Position numbers and translations under genes: made by a program
NCBI RefSeq assembly: GCF_000350165.1
Contig: NZ_CAUI01000021.1
Span: 248,001 to 312,000, forward strand
Direction: 5' to 3'
Source of the DNA: Halanaerobium saccharolyticum subsp. saccharolyticum DSM 6643
GTDB taxonomy: Bacteria > Bacillota > Halanaerobiia > Halanaerobiales > Halanaerobiaceae
Length of the DNA stretch: 64,000 bases
The notes under the pieces: model-generated
Databases searched by the model: none
What the model was told of the DNA's origin: nothing
What the model saw: only the letters and a program-made list of their open reading frames with translations
Shown here: in pieces, positions 5,944 through 14,895 of the stretch
How the letters are laid out: every line of letters starts with the position of its first letter
How positions within the stretch are numbered: the first letter of the stretch is position 1

Positions 5944-8505
5944 ATGGAAGCTAAAATGGAAAAATTATTAGATTGTTTAAATAACTATAAGAAAAAAGCA
6001 TTAGCAAGAAAAAATGCTTATGGACTTGCCCCAAGACCACTTGAGGCAGAAGAAGTTGAATCTCTTTTTGCAGGTTTAAAAATTGAAGGTTTGGAAAATG
6101 AATATTTTGAACTATTTGAAGAAGAAAGATTAGATCAATTAATTTTAAGATTAATTGCAAAGGAAGTAAAAAGAGGAACATTTCCGGCTTCTCATGCTAA
6201 AGCTGAGGGACTTACAGAGTTAATTAAAGAAGCTAAAATAAGAGAGGTAGAAAATCCTTATTTAAGTTCAAGCCAGGCGCTGGATTTACTAGCTAAAATG
6301 AAGGGCGGAGCAGCTACCTCACGTTTAATTGATTTATTTGCTAAAGAAATTTTTAGAGACCAAATAACTGAAATTTTAAAAGATACTGTACTGGTAACTA
6401 AGGCTGATTTTGAGCAGCTTAAAAAACTGGCTGCAGAAAATACTCATTTCAAAAAGAAAATTGATGAGCTGATGCTGAGCTGGGCTTATCGAGATTTTGC
6501 GGCAGACTGGGAGCTTCAGGATCAATATCAGGGTTTGTCTTTAAGAGTTGGCGATAATATTACAACAGGACACTTAAGCCCATCTAAAAATGCTAACAGT
6601 AGAACAGACCAACCTCGTCATGCTCAATTTGTAATGGATGGTCGGGATGATGAGGATGATCTCTGGGGACGACTTAATAAATTAAAGGCTCAAACCGATA
6701 AAGATAAGAGTGTATTTTTTACAGCTGGCAAGGCTCTGGGAGAAGGTTCATCTCGTAAGTCAGCTACTTATACAATGCAGCAGCTTTTAGGAAAATCTGT
6801 AGATGCTGAGCCAGAAAAGAAAAAAGGTGGAGTTGTAATAGCAAAAAGTTTTGCGCCTATTTTTAAAGAATCACTGGTTGCCTCAGGGATATTAGCTCTA
6901 GAAGCTGATACTGCTGAGATTAAAGAAGGAGATAATATTGAAATTGATCTAAAAGCTGAAAAATTGGTTGTTAATAATGAATTGCAACTTGAAATAGAAC
7001 TACCTATTGCTTATAAAATGAAAAAAATTGCAGCAGGCGGAATGACCTATTTTGATGCCGGTAATGAGCTTCAAAAAATGGCTTTAGATTACTGTGAAGA
7101 AAATGGAATTGAGACTGCTGATATTAAAACACCAGCTGAGCAGAACGTGGTCCAAGAAGATTCTAAACCAGCTCAAACATTAGCTCAAAAAATAGTAGCC
7201 TATAATCGTCTCGATGGAAAAGATACAATTTTACCAGGTGAAACAGCTCAGGTTAAAATGAGAGGAGCTTTTTCTCAGGATACAACAGGTCCAATGACTA
7301 TGGATGAATATCAATCAATGGCTGGAGAAGATTTTGGAGCAGAATTTGTAGTACAATCTTTATGTCATACAGGTGAATGCCCTTCCAGTAAAGAAAGAGA
7401 TACTCATAAGTTTTTAAATGAATTTGTTACCGAGCGTGGTGGAGTTTGTTTGCAGACTGGAGAAGGTATTATCCATACTATTGGTAATCGATTTGTACTG
7501 CCGACCGATGTAATTGTTGGTGGAGATTCACATACTAGAACTCCACGAGGAGTTTCTTTTCCAGCGGCTTCAGATATTGTAGCAGGAGTTATGAAATATG
7601 GTAAACAAGATCTGACTATGGACGAATCAGTTAAAGTTAAATTTACAGGTCGCCCACCAGCAGGAATTACTGCGCGAGATCTGGTTTCTGCTTTAGTAGT
7701 TTATGCAGATAAAACTGTGGGTAAGGATATTTATAATGGTAGAATTATTGAAATGGAGGGCTTAGATTTTCTAAGTTCAGATGAGCGCTACATTATGACA
7801 AATGCTGTTGCAGAGAGAAGTGCTTCAGCAGGTGTAGTTCCATCTGATGAGATTACTATTGAGGCTATTAAAGAAAATCTAGAGTATTTAAAATCAAGGC
7901 CTGATGCTAATTCATCTCCATCTGTTAAAAACACAATTAAAGCAATTGAGAATTATCTTAAAGAGCCAGTGCTTTTTGAGGCAGATGAAGATGCTGAATA
8001 TGCAGCAGAAATCGAAATTCCTTTAGCAGAAATTGTAGAACCTTTAGTTGCTAAACCGCATCATCCTGATAATGTAGCTGCCTTAAGTGAGGTTGAAGGT
8101 GAAAAAATTGATGAAGTTTATATCGGCAGCTGTGTTGGTGGAGATTTAAAAAGTATTCAGGAGGCAGCAGCAGTAATTGCTGGGCACAAGATACCTCAAA
8201 ATGTTAATGTTGTTGTTGGACCAGCTTCTCGTGATATTTATGAAGAGTTGATTGTTGATGGTACAATGGAAAGATTAACCAGAGCCGGGGTAACTGTAAT
8301 TATGCCTGGTTGTGGATTATGTATGGGTAATAAAAGAAGAATTGGGTCTGGTGCTACAGCATTTACCACTACAACTCGAAACTATCAGTCTCGGATTGGA
8401 CCTTCTGATTCTAGAACTTATCTTGGTAGTGCCCAAGTAGCAGGTTGTACAGCTGTTTTAGGACACATCCCTTCTAAAGAAGAATATTTTAATCTTTATA
8501 AATAG
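5944..8505 (+). CDS. acnB: Aconitate hydratase B
   Basis: An 853-residue aconitase of the B type (E. coli AcnB is 865). Domains in order are an N-terminal helical repeat domain (about 1-160), the swivelling domain with GEGSSRKSAT near residue 263, and the catalytic core. The [4Fe-4S] cysteines are C730 (GSCVGG) and C790/C793 (PGCGLCMGN). It interconverts citrate and isocitrate in the cytoplasm and feeds the isocitrate dehydrogenase just upstream. The two genes form a likely operon supplying 2-oxoglutarate. No citrate synthase is visible in the window. In other bacteria AcnB can also bind mRNA when its cluster is lost; nothing here tests that. ATG follows GAGGAGAG. Confidence 0.93.
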   Translation: MEAKMEKLLDCLNNYKKKALARKNAYGLAPRPLEAEEVESLFAGLKIEGLENEYFELFEEERLDQLILRLIAKEVKRGTFPASHAKAEGLTELIKEAKIREVENPYLSSSQALDLLAKMKGGAATSRLIDLFAKEIFRDQITEILKDTVLVTKADFEQLKKLAAENTHFKKKIDELMLSWAYRDFAADWELQDQYQGLSLRVGDNITTGHLSPSKNANSRTDQPRHAQFVMDGRDDEDDLWGRLNKLKAQTDKDKSVFFTAGKALGEGSSRKSATYTMQQLLGKSVDAEPEKKKGGVVIAKSFAPIFKESLVASGILALEADTAEIKEGDNIEIDLKAEKLVVNNELQLEIELPIAYKMKKIAAGGMTYFDAGNELQKMALDYCEENGIETADIKTPAEQNVVQEDSKPAQTLAQKIVAYNRLDGKDTILPGETAQVKMRGAFSQDTTGPMTMDEYQSMAGEDFGAEFVVQSLCHTGECPSSKERDTHKFLNEFVTERGGVCLQTGEGIIHTIGNRFVLPTDVIVGGDSHTRTPRGVSFPAASDIVAGVMKYGKQDLTMDESVKVKFTGRPPAGITARDLVSALVVYADKTVGKDIYNGRIIEMEGLDFLSSDERYIMTNAVAERSASAGVVPSDEITIEAIKENLEYLKSRPDANSSPSVKNTIKAIENYLKEPVLFEADEDAEYAAEIEIPLAEIVEPLVAKPHHPDNVAALSEVEGEKIDEVYIGSCVGGDLKSIQEAAAVIAGHKIPQNVNVVVGPASRDIYEELIVDGTMERLTRAGVTVIMPGCGLCMGNKRRIGSGATAFTTTTRNYQSRIGPSDSRTYLGSAQVAGCTAVLGHIPSKEEYFNLYK

Positions 8506-8577
8506 TGTCCACTTTTTTGCAGCTTCTGGATGCACAGTCAATTATTTATAATTAAAAATTAAATAACCTGAAGAAAA

Positions 8578-8726
8578 GGATTGAAAAATCTGATTTGAGG
8601 GATTGAGAGAAAGTTTGCTTGCAATAAGGCGCGCTGTTCATTAAAAAGCAGTTAGCTGAGTTTAGAGTAACTTTTATTAAATGATATTTAATCCCTATCT
8701 TTGTCTAGATAGGGATTTGCTTTTTT
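8578..8726 (+). promoter_or_regulatory. Structured leader B with terminator before ABC transporter (candidate transcriptional riboswitch)
   Basis: A 263-base gap precedes the transporter. It has the hairpin GGATT-GAAA-AATCT (8578-8591), then AGGGATT (8598-8604) and the core GAAAGTTTGCTTGCAA, a variable arm, and TTTAGAGTAA near 8660. A strong terminator follows: AATCCCTATCT (8690-8700) with AGATAGGGATT (8707-8717) and six T. AGGGATT at 8598 is complementary to AATCCCT at 8690, so closing the upstream fold would take the 5' arm of the terminator. That is the usual layout of a transcriptional riboswitch or attenuator. The core is shared with the leader at 3733. The ligand is unknown. Confidence 0.6.
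8690..8726 (+). terminator. Leader terminator (attenuator) upstream of the ABC operon
   Basis: An 11-bp perfect stem with a 6-base loop (TTGTCT) and a T-run at 8721-8726 lies 42 bases before the transporter start. It sits inside leader B and overlaps the complementary segment of the upstream fold, so it is probably conditional rather than a simple end of the acnB transcript. Confidence 0.85.
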
Positions 8727-8768
8727 ATTACAAATTATTAATTTCACTAACTATAAAGGAGAGATTAA

Positions 8769-9560
8769 GTGAAAATAAAAAGTAAACAGATAAAAGCTTT
8801 AATTTTACCATTATTTATTTTAATATGCTGGTATTTAGGTAGTGAATCTGGTTTTTTTAACTCCTATATATTACCTTCACCAGTAAAGATATTAAAAACT
8901 TTTTTAGATTTACTTAAAAATGGAATGTTAATTAAACATTTATTAGTTAGTTTCTATAGAGTGTTCTTAGGTTTTACAATAACTTTTATTGCAGCTTTTT
9001 TGTTAGCTCTTTTAATTGCATTAAATGATTGGTTAACAGATTATATCAAACCCACTTTAGAATTCATTCGCCATATTCCTCCTATTGCTTTAATTCCAAT
9101 TTTAATATTATGGTTAGGAATTGGAGAAAAACCTAAAATAACAGTTATAATTCTTGCTACTTTTTTTCCTGTCTTTTTAAATACTCTCAGCGGTATCAGT
9201 AATTGTGACTCAAAGTTAAAAGAAGTTGGAGATATTTTTGGACTAAGCAAATGGGAGAAATTTTATAGAATTATTTTACCCCAAGCACTGCCTTCAATTA
9301 TTGTAGGAATGCAGATAGCGCTGGGATATAGTTGGCGCTCATTAATTGGGGCAGAGTTAATAGCTGCATCTTCTGGAATCGGATATATGATAATTGATGC
9401 TGAACAATTGTCTCGACCTGATATTATTATAGTTGGAGTAATTACAATTGGGATTTTTGGTTATTTAATTGATTATTTCTTTTTCAAATTTACTCAAAAA
9501 TTAATTCATCAAGGGGGAAAAGAGGATGAGATCAATTATTCAAATCAAAAATTTAACTAA
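8769..9560 (+). CDS. ABC transporter permease, NitT/TauT (SsuC/TauC) family
   Basis: A 263-residue inner-membrane permease with about six helices. The first is at residues 10-27, and the typical EAA-type cytoplasmic loop appears near residue 157-180 (DIFGLSKWEKFYRIILPQAL). SGIGYMIIDAEQL and the HIPPIALIPILILWLGIGE segment are characteristic of the nitrate/sulfonate/taurine/pyrimidine-precursor family. Translation starts at GTG 8769 behind AAAGGAGAG. It overlaps the ATPase gene by 35 bases, a tight operon with the binding protein at 10350. The substrate is not readable from sequence; the unidentified leader upstream is the best clue. Confidence 0.85.
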   Translation: MKIKSKQIKALILPLFILICWYLGSESGFFNSYILPSPVKILKTFLDLLKNGMLIKHLLVSFYRVFLGFTITFIAAFLLALLIALNDWLTDYIKPTLEFIRHIPPIALIPILILWLGIGEKPKITVIILATFFPVFLNTLSGISNCDSKLKEVGDIFGLSKWEKFYRIILPQALPSIIVGMQIALGYSWRSLIGAELIAASSGIGYMIIDAEQLSRPDIIIVGVITIGIFGYLIDYFFFKFTQKLIHQGGKEDEINYSNQKFN

Positions 9561-10245
9561 AAAATATAAGATAGATGGTCGAGCTTTTAAAGCGCTAAAT
9601 GACATTAACTTAAAAATTAATGAAGGGAGTTTCACAACTATAGTTGGTAAAAGTGGTTGTGGAAAAAGCACTTTATTGCGAATTATTGCCGGTCTGGAAG
9701 AGGCAGCAGAAGGTAAAATTATAGGAAAAAAGAAGGTGAAAAGTTCACTAGTTTTTCAGGAAGCAAGATTAATGCCCTGGCTGACAGTTGAAGAAAATAT
9801 TTTATTCCCTTTAAAAAAAAGAGATAAAAAATCTGAATCAGTTAAAAAAGTTAATGAACATCTAAATTTGTTGGGGTTAAATGAGTTTAAAGATGCTTAT
9901 CCAAATCAAATATCAGGGGGAATGGCTCAAAGAACTGCTTTAGGAAGGGCTTTAGTCTATGATTCTGATCTTATTTTAATGGATGAGCCTCTGGGATCTC
10001 TTGATGCATTTAATAGGTATAAGCTGCAGCAAGAATTACAGCATATATTTTCTAAAAATAATAAAACTGTTATTTTTGTTACTCATGATATTGACGAAGC
10101 AATTTTTTTAGGTGATAGAGTTCTAGTTATGGAGGCAGGTTCTATTACTAAAGAGTTTAATTTAGAGCAGGAGCCTAGTATTTCTATAAAAAAAGCCAAA
10201 CAGCTTGAATTAAAAGAAAAGATTTTGGCAGAGATTAAAGCTTAA
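9526..10245 (+). CDS. ABC transporter ATP-binding protein, NitT/TauT (SsuB/TauB) family
   Basis: A 239-residue ATPase. Walker A is GKSGCGKST near residue 42, the Q-loop is in VFQEARLMPWLTVEEN, the signature is ISGGMAQR near 127, Walker B is LILMDEPLG, and the H-loop is VTHDIDEA. The PWLTVEEN segment is typical of the nitrate/sulfonate/taurine subfamily. It energises uptake by the permease encoded just upstream. ATG at 9526 lies inside the permease gene behind GGGGGAAAAGAGG, so translation is probably coupled. Confidence 0.88.
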   Translation: MRSIIQIKNLTKKYKIDGRAFKALNDINLKINEGSFTTIVGKSGCGKSTLLRIIAGLEEAAEGKIIGKKKVKSSLVFQEARLMPWLTVEENILFPLKKRDKKSESVKKVNEHLNLLGLNEFKDAYPNQISGGMAQRTALGRALVYDSDLILMDEPLGSLDAFNRYKLQQELQHIFSKNNKTVIFVTHDIDEAIFLGDRVLVMEAGSITKEFNLEQEPSISIKKAKQLELKEKILAEIKA

Positions 10246-11300: not shown

Positions 11301-11434
11301 TTAAAGTCAAAGCTTTAGATTAAACAATAATATCTATAGAATTATCTATGTTTTTAGATATATTAAAATGAGTTTAGCGCTTGTATTTACAGCAAAAATT
11401 ATATATAATTATAAATCGCTGCATTATACATGTT

Positions 11435-11485
11435 AGCTGTCTGCTGATTAGAAAATTTAATTAGCTGGCAGCTTTCTTTGCTTTT
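11435..11485 (+). terminator. Probable terminator after the NitT/TauT-type operon
   Basis: A 16-position stem (11435-11450 with 11458-11473) has one mismatch and two wobble pairs, with a 7-base loop. The tail is T-rich but interrupted. It ends the transporter transcript 135 bases after the binding-protein gene. Confidence 0.7.
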
Positions 11486-13650: not shown

Positions 13651-13678
13651 ACTAAATAACTTAAAAAGAAAATAAAAA

Positions 13679-13814
13679 TCATCAAGAGCGGTGGAGGGAC
13701 TGGCCCTGTGATACCCGGCAACCTACTTAAAATCTTTAGTAAGGTGCTAATTCCAGCATTCCGGAAAGGAATGATAGATGAGAGGCAATTAAATCCTCTC
13801 ACGAGGATTTTTTT
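13679..13814 (+). promoter_or_regulatory. SAM-I (S-box) riboswitch with terminator
   Basis: The S-box core is clear: AAGAGCGGTGGAGGGACTGG from 13684, then CCCGGCAACC from 13734, AAGGTGCTAATTCC, and the closing GATGAGAGG near 13777. The expression platform is AATCCTC (13792-13798) with GAGGATT (13803-13809) and a long T-run. GAGAGG at 13780 can pair with CCTCTC at 13795 as an antiterminator. By the known mechanism, bound SAM favours termination and shuts off metNIQ when methionine is plentiful. Confidence 0.95.
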
Positions 13815-13872: not shown

Positions 13873-14895
13873 TTGATAAAAATTGATAATTTAACTAAAC
13901 ATTATCATGCAGCTCAAGGCAAAGTAGAAGCAATTAATGGTTTAAATTTAGAAGTTGCTGATGGTGAAATATTTGGAATGATAGGACCAAGTGGAGCAGG
14001 CAAAAGCACTTTAATTAGAATGCTTAATCTTTTAGAAAAGCCTACTGCTGGTACTATTAACATTAATGGTACAGATTTAACTGAATTAAGTTCACAAAAT
14101 TTAAGAGCAGCCAGGCAAAAAATTGGGATGATTTTTCAGCATTTTAATCTTTTATCATCTCGGACAGTTTTGGGTAATGTGGCCTTTCCGTTAGAGATTG
14201 CAGGTGTGGGTAAAAAGAAAAGGCAAGAAAAAGCAAAAGAATTAATTGAACTTGTAGGCTTATCAGACAGAACAGATCACTATCCAGCTCAGTTGTCTGG
14301 AGGGCAGAAGCAGCGAGTAGGTATTGCAAGAGCGCTGGCTAATAACCCTGATTTATTATTGTCAGATGAGGCAACTTCTTCATTAGATCCAGAAAGTACA
14401 AAAGCTGTACTAGAACTTTTAGCTAAAATCAGGGATGAGATGAATTTAACAATTATTTTAATTACTCATGAAATGGGTGTGATCAAAGATATTTGTGATC
14501 GAGTTGCTGTTTTAGAAGCTGGAAAGATTATCGAAGAGGGAAAAATAATTGATATTTTCTCCAGCCCCCAGCAGCCTCTGACAAAAAAGTTTATTAGTTC
14601 TGTAATTGATTTTGATTTGCCAGAAAGAATTATTAAACATATAAAAAAGAAAAGACCTGGAGAATTGGTTAGGATTTCTTTTGTTGGAGAAACAACTCAT
14701 GATCCTCACATTTCGGATCTTGTAAAACATTATTCTGTAGATGCCAACATATTATATGGTAATATCGATGAGATCCAGGGCGTACCATTTGGAACTTTAG
14801 TTTTAGATTTAGAGGGACAGTTAACAAATGTAGAAGAGAGTATTGCTTATTTAAGAAGTAAGGATTTAAGAGTTGAGGTGTTAGAAGATGTTTGA
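13873..14895 (+). CDS. metN: Methionine ABC transporter ATP-binding protein MetN
   Basis: A 340-residue ATPase with Walker A GPSGAGKST near residue 37, signature LSGGQKQR near 139 and Walker B LLLSDEATSSLD near 160. A C-terminal regulatory domain of the NIL (ACT-like) type spans about residues 255-340, which in MetN binds methionine and inhibits transport. Translation starts at TTG 13873 behind GAGGG. It overlaps metI by 8 bases. The SAM riboswitch upstream confirms methionine as the substrate. Confidence 0.95.
   Translation: MIKIDNLTKHYHAAQGKVEAINGLNLEVADGEIFGMIGPSGAGKSTLIRMLNLLEKPTAGTININGTDLTELSSQNLRAARQKIGMIFQHFNLLSSRTVLGNVAFPLEIAGVGKKKRQEKAKELIELVGLSDRTDHYPAQLSGGQKQRVGIARALANNPDLLLSDEATSSLDPESTKAVLELLAKIRDEMNLTIILITHEMGVIKDICDRVAVLEAGKIIEEGKIIDIFSSPQQPLTKKFISSVIDFDLPERIIKHIKKKRPGELVRISFVGETTHDPHISDLVKHYSVDANILYGNIDEIQGVPFGTLVLDLEGQLTNVEESIAYLRSKDLRVEVLEDV

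Follow-up and report, generated by a model that had tools for sequence, protein, structure and literature searches.

The described systems closest to the leader studied here are the PyrR-binding attenuators, the S-box SAM leaders and the NMT1 motif. PyrR binds its anti-antiterminator hairpin, and the S-box SAM leaders are transcriptional OFF switches working by an anti-antiterminator/antiterminator/terminator logic. The NMT1 (xanthine) motif has been reported only from Proteobacteria, acts by translational control and serves TauA-type transporters (PMC7373994). In the window (the whole stretch of 64,000 nucleotides analysed, from Halanaerobium saccharolyticum subsp. saccharolyticum DSM 6643), the region before an ABC transporter operon is probably a 5' leader acting as a transcription attenuator, with a core that is a candidate sensing element for a metabolite or a protein. 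As read from its sequence, the design is that of an ordinary transcriptional OFF attenuator, with a core that is unclassified and matches no Rfam family; the literature on riboswitches in Halanaerobium or on orphans before sulfonate transporters gave nothing on this element.

The leader lies on the forward strand, 3' of acnB (5944 to 8505, with the stop at 8505) and 5' of an operon of the same strand. The first gene of this operon encodes an SsuC/TauC-like ABC permease (8769 to 9560) with a GTG start, and the sequence AAGGAGAG at 8756 to 8763 can be read as its ribosome-binding site; an ABC ATP-binding protein (9526 to 10245) and a substrate-binding protein of the SsuA family (TIGR01728, 10341 to 11300) follow. 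A structure prediction of the binding protein, sought as a clue to the ligand, had a mean pLDDT of 36 and was set aside. Among 61 related genomes, a search at the DNA level gave one orthologous leader (G006) and a permease search gave a further one (G011), the window genome being labelled G000; a GTDB pattern scan for the core identified the species as H. congolense DSM 11287 (G006) and H. salsuginis ATCC 51327 (G011). The gene order acnB, leader, permease, ATPase, SsuA-like binding protein and uvrD-like helicase is identical in the three species. No clear promoter was found in the window genome or in H. congolense: a possible -10 box TATAAT with a poor -35, seen by eye at 8547 to 8552, is weak and was not reported by the promoter consensus scan. 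H. salsuginis has a good promoter 5' of its core (TTGTAA-17-TATAAT, with the TG of an extended -10). Two other leaders were observed in the window. The uvrD-like helicase is preceded, at about 11405 to 11485 on the forward strand, by a TATAAT-like box and then a long hairpin whose tail is rich in T (AGCTGTCTGCTGATTAG...TTAGCTGGCAGCTTTCTTTGCTTTT), which is kept in G001, G005 and G009 and is possibly an attenuator of its own. An ordinary SAM (S-box) riboswitch (RF00162, 86.3 bits) lies at 13676 to 13784 on the forward strand, before a metN-like ABC operon that begins at 13873.

A strong intrinsic terminator occupies 8690 to 8724, with its stem at 8690 to 8717 (AATCCCTATCT-TTGTCT-AGATAGGGATT + TGCTTTTTTA) and its U-tract extending to about 8724; the scan found one terminator here where shuffled sequences gave 0.1. 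As in a transcription attenuator, it stands within the leader, 5' of the ribosome-binding site and 51 nt ahead of the permease start. The H. congolense terminator (L002, 1627 to 1668) has an intact stem and a poor, degraded U-tract (TTCATTGTGT), so that termination may be weak there, and it was counted as a leader terminator despite this tract. The sequence-only reading had pointed to the segment AGGGATT as the complement of the terminator 5' arm, and both the positions (8598 to 8604 against AATCCCT at 8690 to 8696) and the full complementarity are as claimed. Being the exact complement of the 5' arm, AGGGATT is therefore a copy of the terminator 3' arm. The duplex of leader and 5' arm has a predicted energy of -9.8 kcal/mol, which is equalled by about 3% of dinucleotide shuffles, and its p value is the lowest among the 13 terminators obtained in the same scan of the window; taken by itself, the complementarity is modest, with p values of 0.03 to 0.09 per species.

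The same segment provides the 3' strand of the basal helix of a 35-nt hairpin, the conserved core (8567 to 8601). CCU 8567-8569 closes it by pairing with AGG 8598-8600 (P1), and it further comprises a purine bulge GAA, an A/U helix (8573-8576/8593-8596) and P2 (8578-8582/8587-8591). An upstream fold had been proposed from the window sequence and does exist, but not from position 8578, where it had been made to start: with this start the 5' half of the fold is lost, so the element is taken here to extend from about 8563 to 8724. The whole-leader fold has a z score of -3.08 relative to dinucleotide shuffles. Constrained folding was used to model a transcript whose 3' end lies immediately beyond the 5' arm of the terminator. 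For each of the three species its free minimum was the antiterminator, in which the upper part of the core is kept and P1 is open; P1 is therefore the predicted switching helix. At full length the terminator beats the antiterminator by 7.0, 10.4 and 1.2 kcal/mol in the three species, and the leader is thus predicted to be bistable in each of them, with the antiterminator early and the terminator at full length.

The comparison across species gives stronger evidence than the complementarity alone. H. salsuginis is a distant relative (its permease is 68% identical), and little of its intergenic region besides the core and the terminator can be aligned with the other two. The alignment of the H. 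congolense and H. salsuginis intergenic regions scores 49, where none of 2000 shuffles exceeds 42, the aligned block being the core, and the core similarity between the window genome and H. salsuginis (score 29) is matched by 71 of 2000 shuffles and does not stand out. The three-species consensus is CCUGAAnAAnnRGAU...AUCYGAUUURAGGG, and the outermost pair of P2 takes a different form in each species (G-U, G-C and A-U). The nucleotide 3' of the invariant AGGG is A in two species and C in H. salsuginis, which turns AGGGA/UCCCU into AGGGC/GCCCU. In the latter species the terminator 5' arm reads GCCC in place of UCCC and the 3' arm GGGC in place of GGGA, hence an antiterminator pair A-U becomes C-G alongside the terminator pair U-A becoming G-C. 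Through this joint change of the core 3' strand and the two arms of the terminator, antiterminator and terminator both stay paired in H. salsuginis, and a mutually exclusive antiterminator is conserved on one compensatory change only. Shuffle controls on the pair counts of the core and of the antiterminator were not significant; with only three sequences these controls cannot reach significance, and the covariation rests on few changes. The mutual exclusion suggested from the single leader is supported by this comparison and by the predicted folds, and the conservation of the core, which a single sequence could not have revealed, holds in three species.

The segment 8609 to 8675 is more than a spacer: it is a second long hairpin, whose internal loops are symmetric and which is enclosed by the antiterminator helix. 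This hairpin is common to the window genome and H. congolense only and is absent in H. salsuginis. It shows three compensatory pairs between the two species and a fold z score of -1.94. Its internal-loop strands CUUGnnAUnAGGC and AGCUGAGUUnAGAG are strongly conserved in these two species and possibly form a tandem G-A motif.

The core occurs in 3 of 12 Halanaerobium genomes, which are the only ones with the transporter; it precedes the orthologous permease in all three and has no other convincing location. Core and pairing, whose lack of conservation in related leaders would have refuted the sequence-only reading, are conserved, over a range far narrower than the Halanaerobiales, namely three species of one genus. 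A core covariance model searched against 398 genomes of the phylum gave nothing convincing: its weak matches, which fell for the most part within genes or unrelated sequence, in no case preceded a NitT/TauT-type transporter and were treated as chance, as were the other GTDB matches to the core pattern, which fall inside reading frames. Search filters lose weak matches in large sets, so distant relatives could be missed. The core was not found in IMG/VR viral contigs, and a mobile or repeated element was ruled out, the leader being present once in the genome.

In the mechanism that we propose, the core hairpin would be the sensing element. A metabolite or protein holding P1 shut would sequester AGGG and block the antiterminator AGGGAUU:AAUCCCU, the terminator would form and the transporter would be OFF; with the core unbound, the P1 3' strand would pair with the emerging terminator 5' arm and allow read-through. 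Since P1 held shut favours termination, the device would be an OFF switch. We infer that in vivo the operon is regulated by the two states, that the switch is an OFF one and that there is a cognate effector; from the annotation of the SsuA-like binding protein, our guess for this effector would be a metabolite of sulfur or nitrogen status. A conserved aptamer-like core lies 5' of the expression platform in the three species, as in a riboswitch, and it could equally be a protein site. The binding of an RNA-binding regulatory protein to the core of the same attenuator, a sub-case of the main reading and not exclusive with it, is possible with rather low probability: the small, nearly continuous hairpin with its purine bulge has a size typical for protein sites and the narrow clade range fits a local regulator, but the operon contains no candidate regulator gene and the PyrR-binding site model reached 25.0 bits, in one leader only, against a gathering score of 54.

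The attenuator reading has also to be weighed against a constitutive acnB terminator with a chance complement, the transporter being expressed by incomplete termination or read-through without any sensing. The acnB gene is present in 11 of the 12 Halanaerobium genomes. In G001, G004 and G009 it ends in its own plain GC-rich terminator (CAGCAGC...GCTGCTG), which is missing in the window genome and in H. congolense, so that in these two the transcripts of acnB also end at the leader terminator; the complementarity, with a p value of only about 0.03 when taken alone, would likewise be compatible with chance. However, in G001, G005 and G009 (L073, L075 and L074) acnB is directly followed by uvrD, and transporter and core are both missing. 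Genomes with acnB and without the transporter have no core; the core is thus linked to the transporter and not to acnB. These three genomes lack the leader together with all three transporter genes, a pattern which suggests that they were gained or lost jointly, as a cassette. The conservation of the core 5' of the terminator in diverged species, the joint change of its 3' strand with the terminator and the lack of a convincing promoter in the 51 nt between terminator and GTG also argue against a constitutive terminator, which we consider unlikely.

It is very improbable that the element belongs to a known riboswitch class (TPP or xanthine/NMT1, for instance) and has diverged too far for the Rfam model of that class. 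There is overlap between the transporter family and those under control of the NMT1 motif, but this motif is reported only from Proteobacteria (PMC7373994). Searches of the three orthologous leaders against Rfam 15, at the gathering and at a relaxed threshold (E up to 5), returned only sub-threshold chance matches, and neither the TPP nor the NMT1 family appeared. A CCUGA...AGGGA pattern, which we take to resemble the P4-P5 arm of TPP, was counted in favour of such a class. The T-box, named in the sequence-only reading as a match that would speak against a new switch, gave no match to its covariance model even at E up to 5 in the three leaders, and the statement that the core matches no known class holds for all of them. 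Ribosome-mediated attenuation by a tiny leader peptide, for which frames start at an AUG within the H. congolense core (AUG GGA UUU AAA AAU CCG AUU UAA) and the H. salsuginis core (AUG AGA UUA UUU AAG AUC UGA), was rejected as very improbable, the frames having no Shine-Dalgarno sequence and no codon set or stop in common, and the window sequence no AUG.

Tentatively, the attenuator could represent a new riboswitch class of about 35 nt, restricted to this clade, sensing a sulfur- or nitrogen-related metabolite and controlling a sulfonate/NitT-type transporter, to which one sublineage would have added the second domain at 8609 to 8675. If so, a few halophilic anaerobes would possess a compact cis-regulatory RNA that is confined to them and belongs to none of the known families, of a rare kind that escapes broad comparative searches. 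Being so small, its core lends itself to direct in-line probing and would give a handle on the cargo of an orphan SsuA-like transporter.

Compared with the known systems, the Halanaerobium leader shares with the NMT1 motif the NMT1/TauA-type transporter genes, the predicted OFF direction and a small two-stem core, whereas the NMT1 core is another one (without Rfam match here) and acts by translational control in Proteobacteria only (PMC7373994). With the PyrR-binding attenuators it has in common a small hairpin that would serve as anti-antiterminator, but it contains no PyrR site above the cut-off and does not precede pyr genes. The S-box SAM leaders resemble it in that the P1 3' strand doubles as the antiterminator strand and the terminator is placed shortly before the ribosome-binding site with a transport operon downstream; unlike them, the Halanaerobium core is a single hairpin of about 35 nt without a junction, found in three species only.
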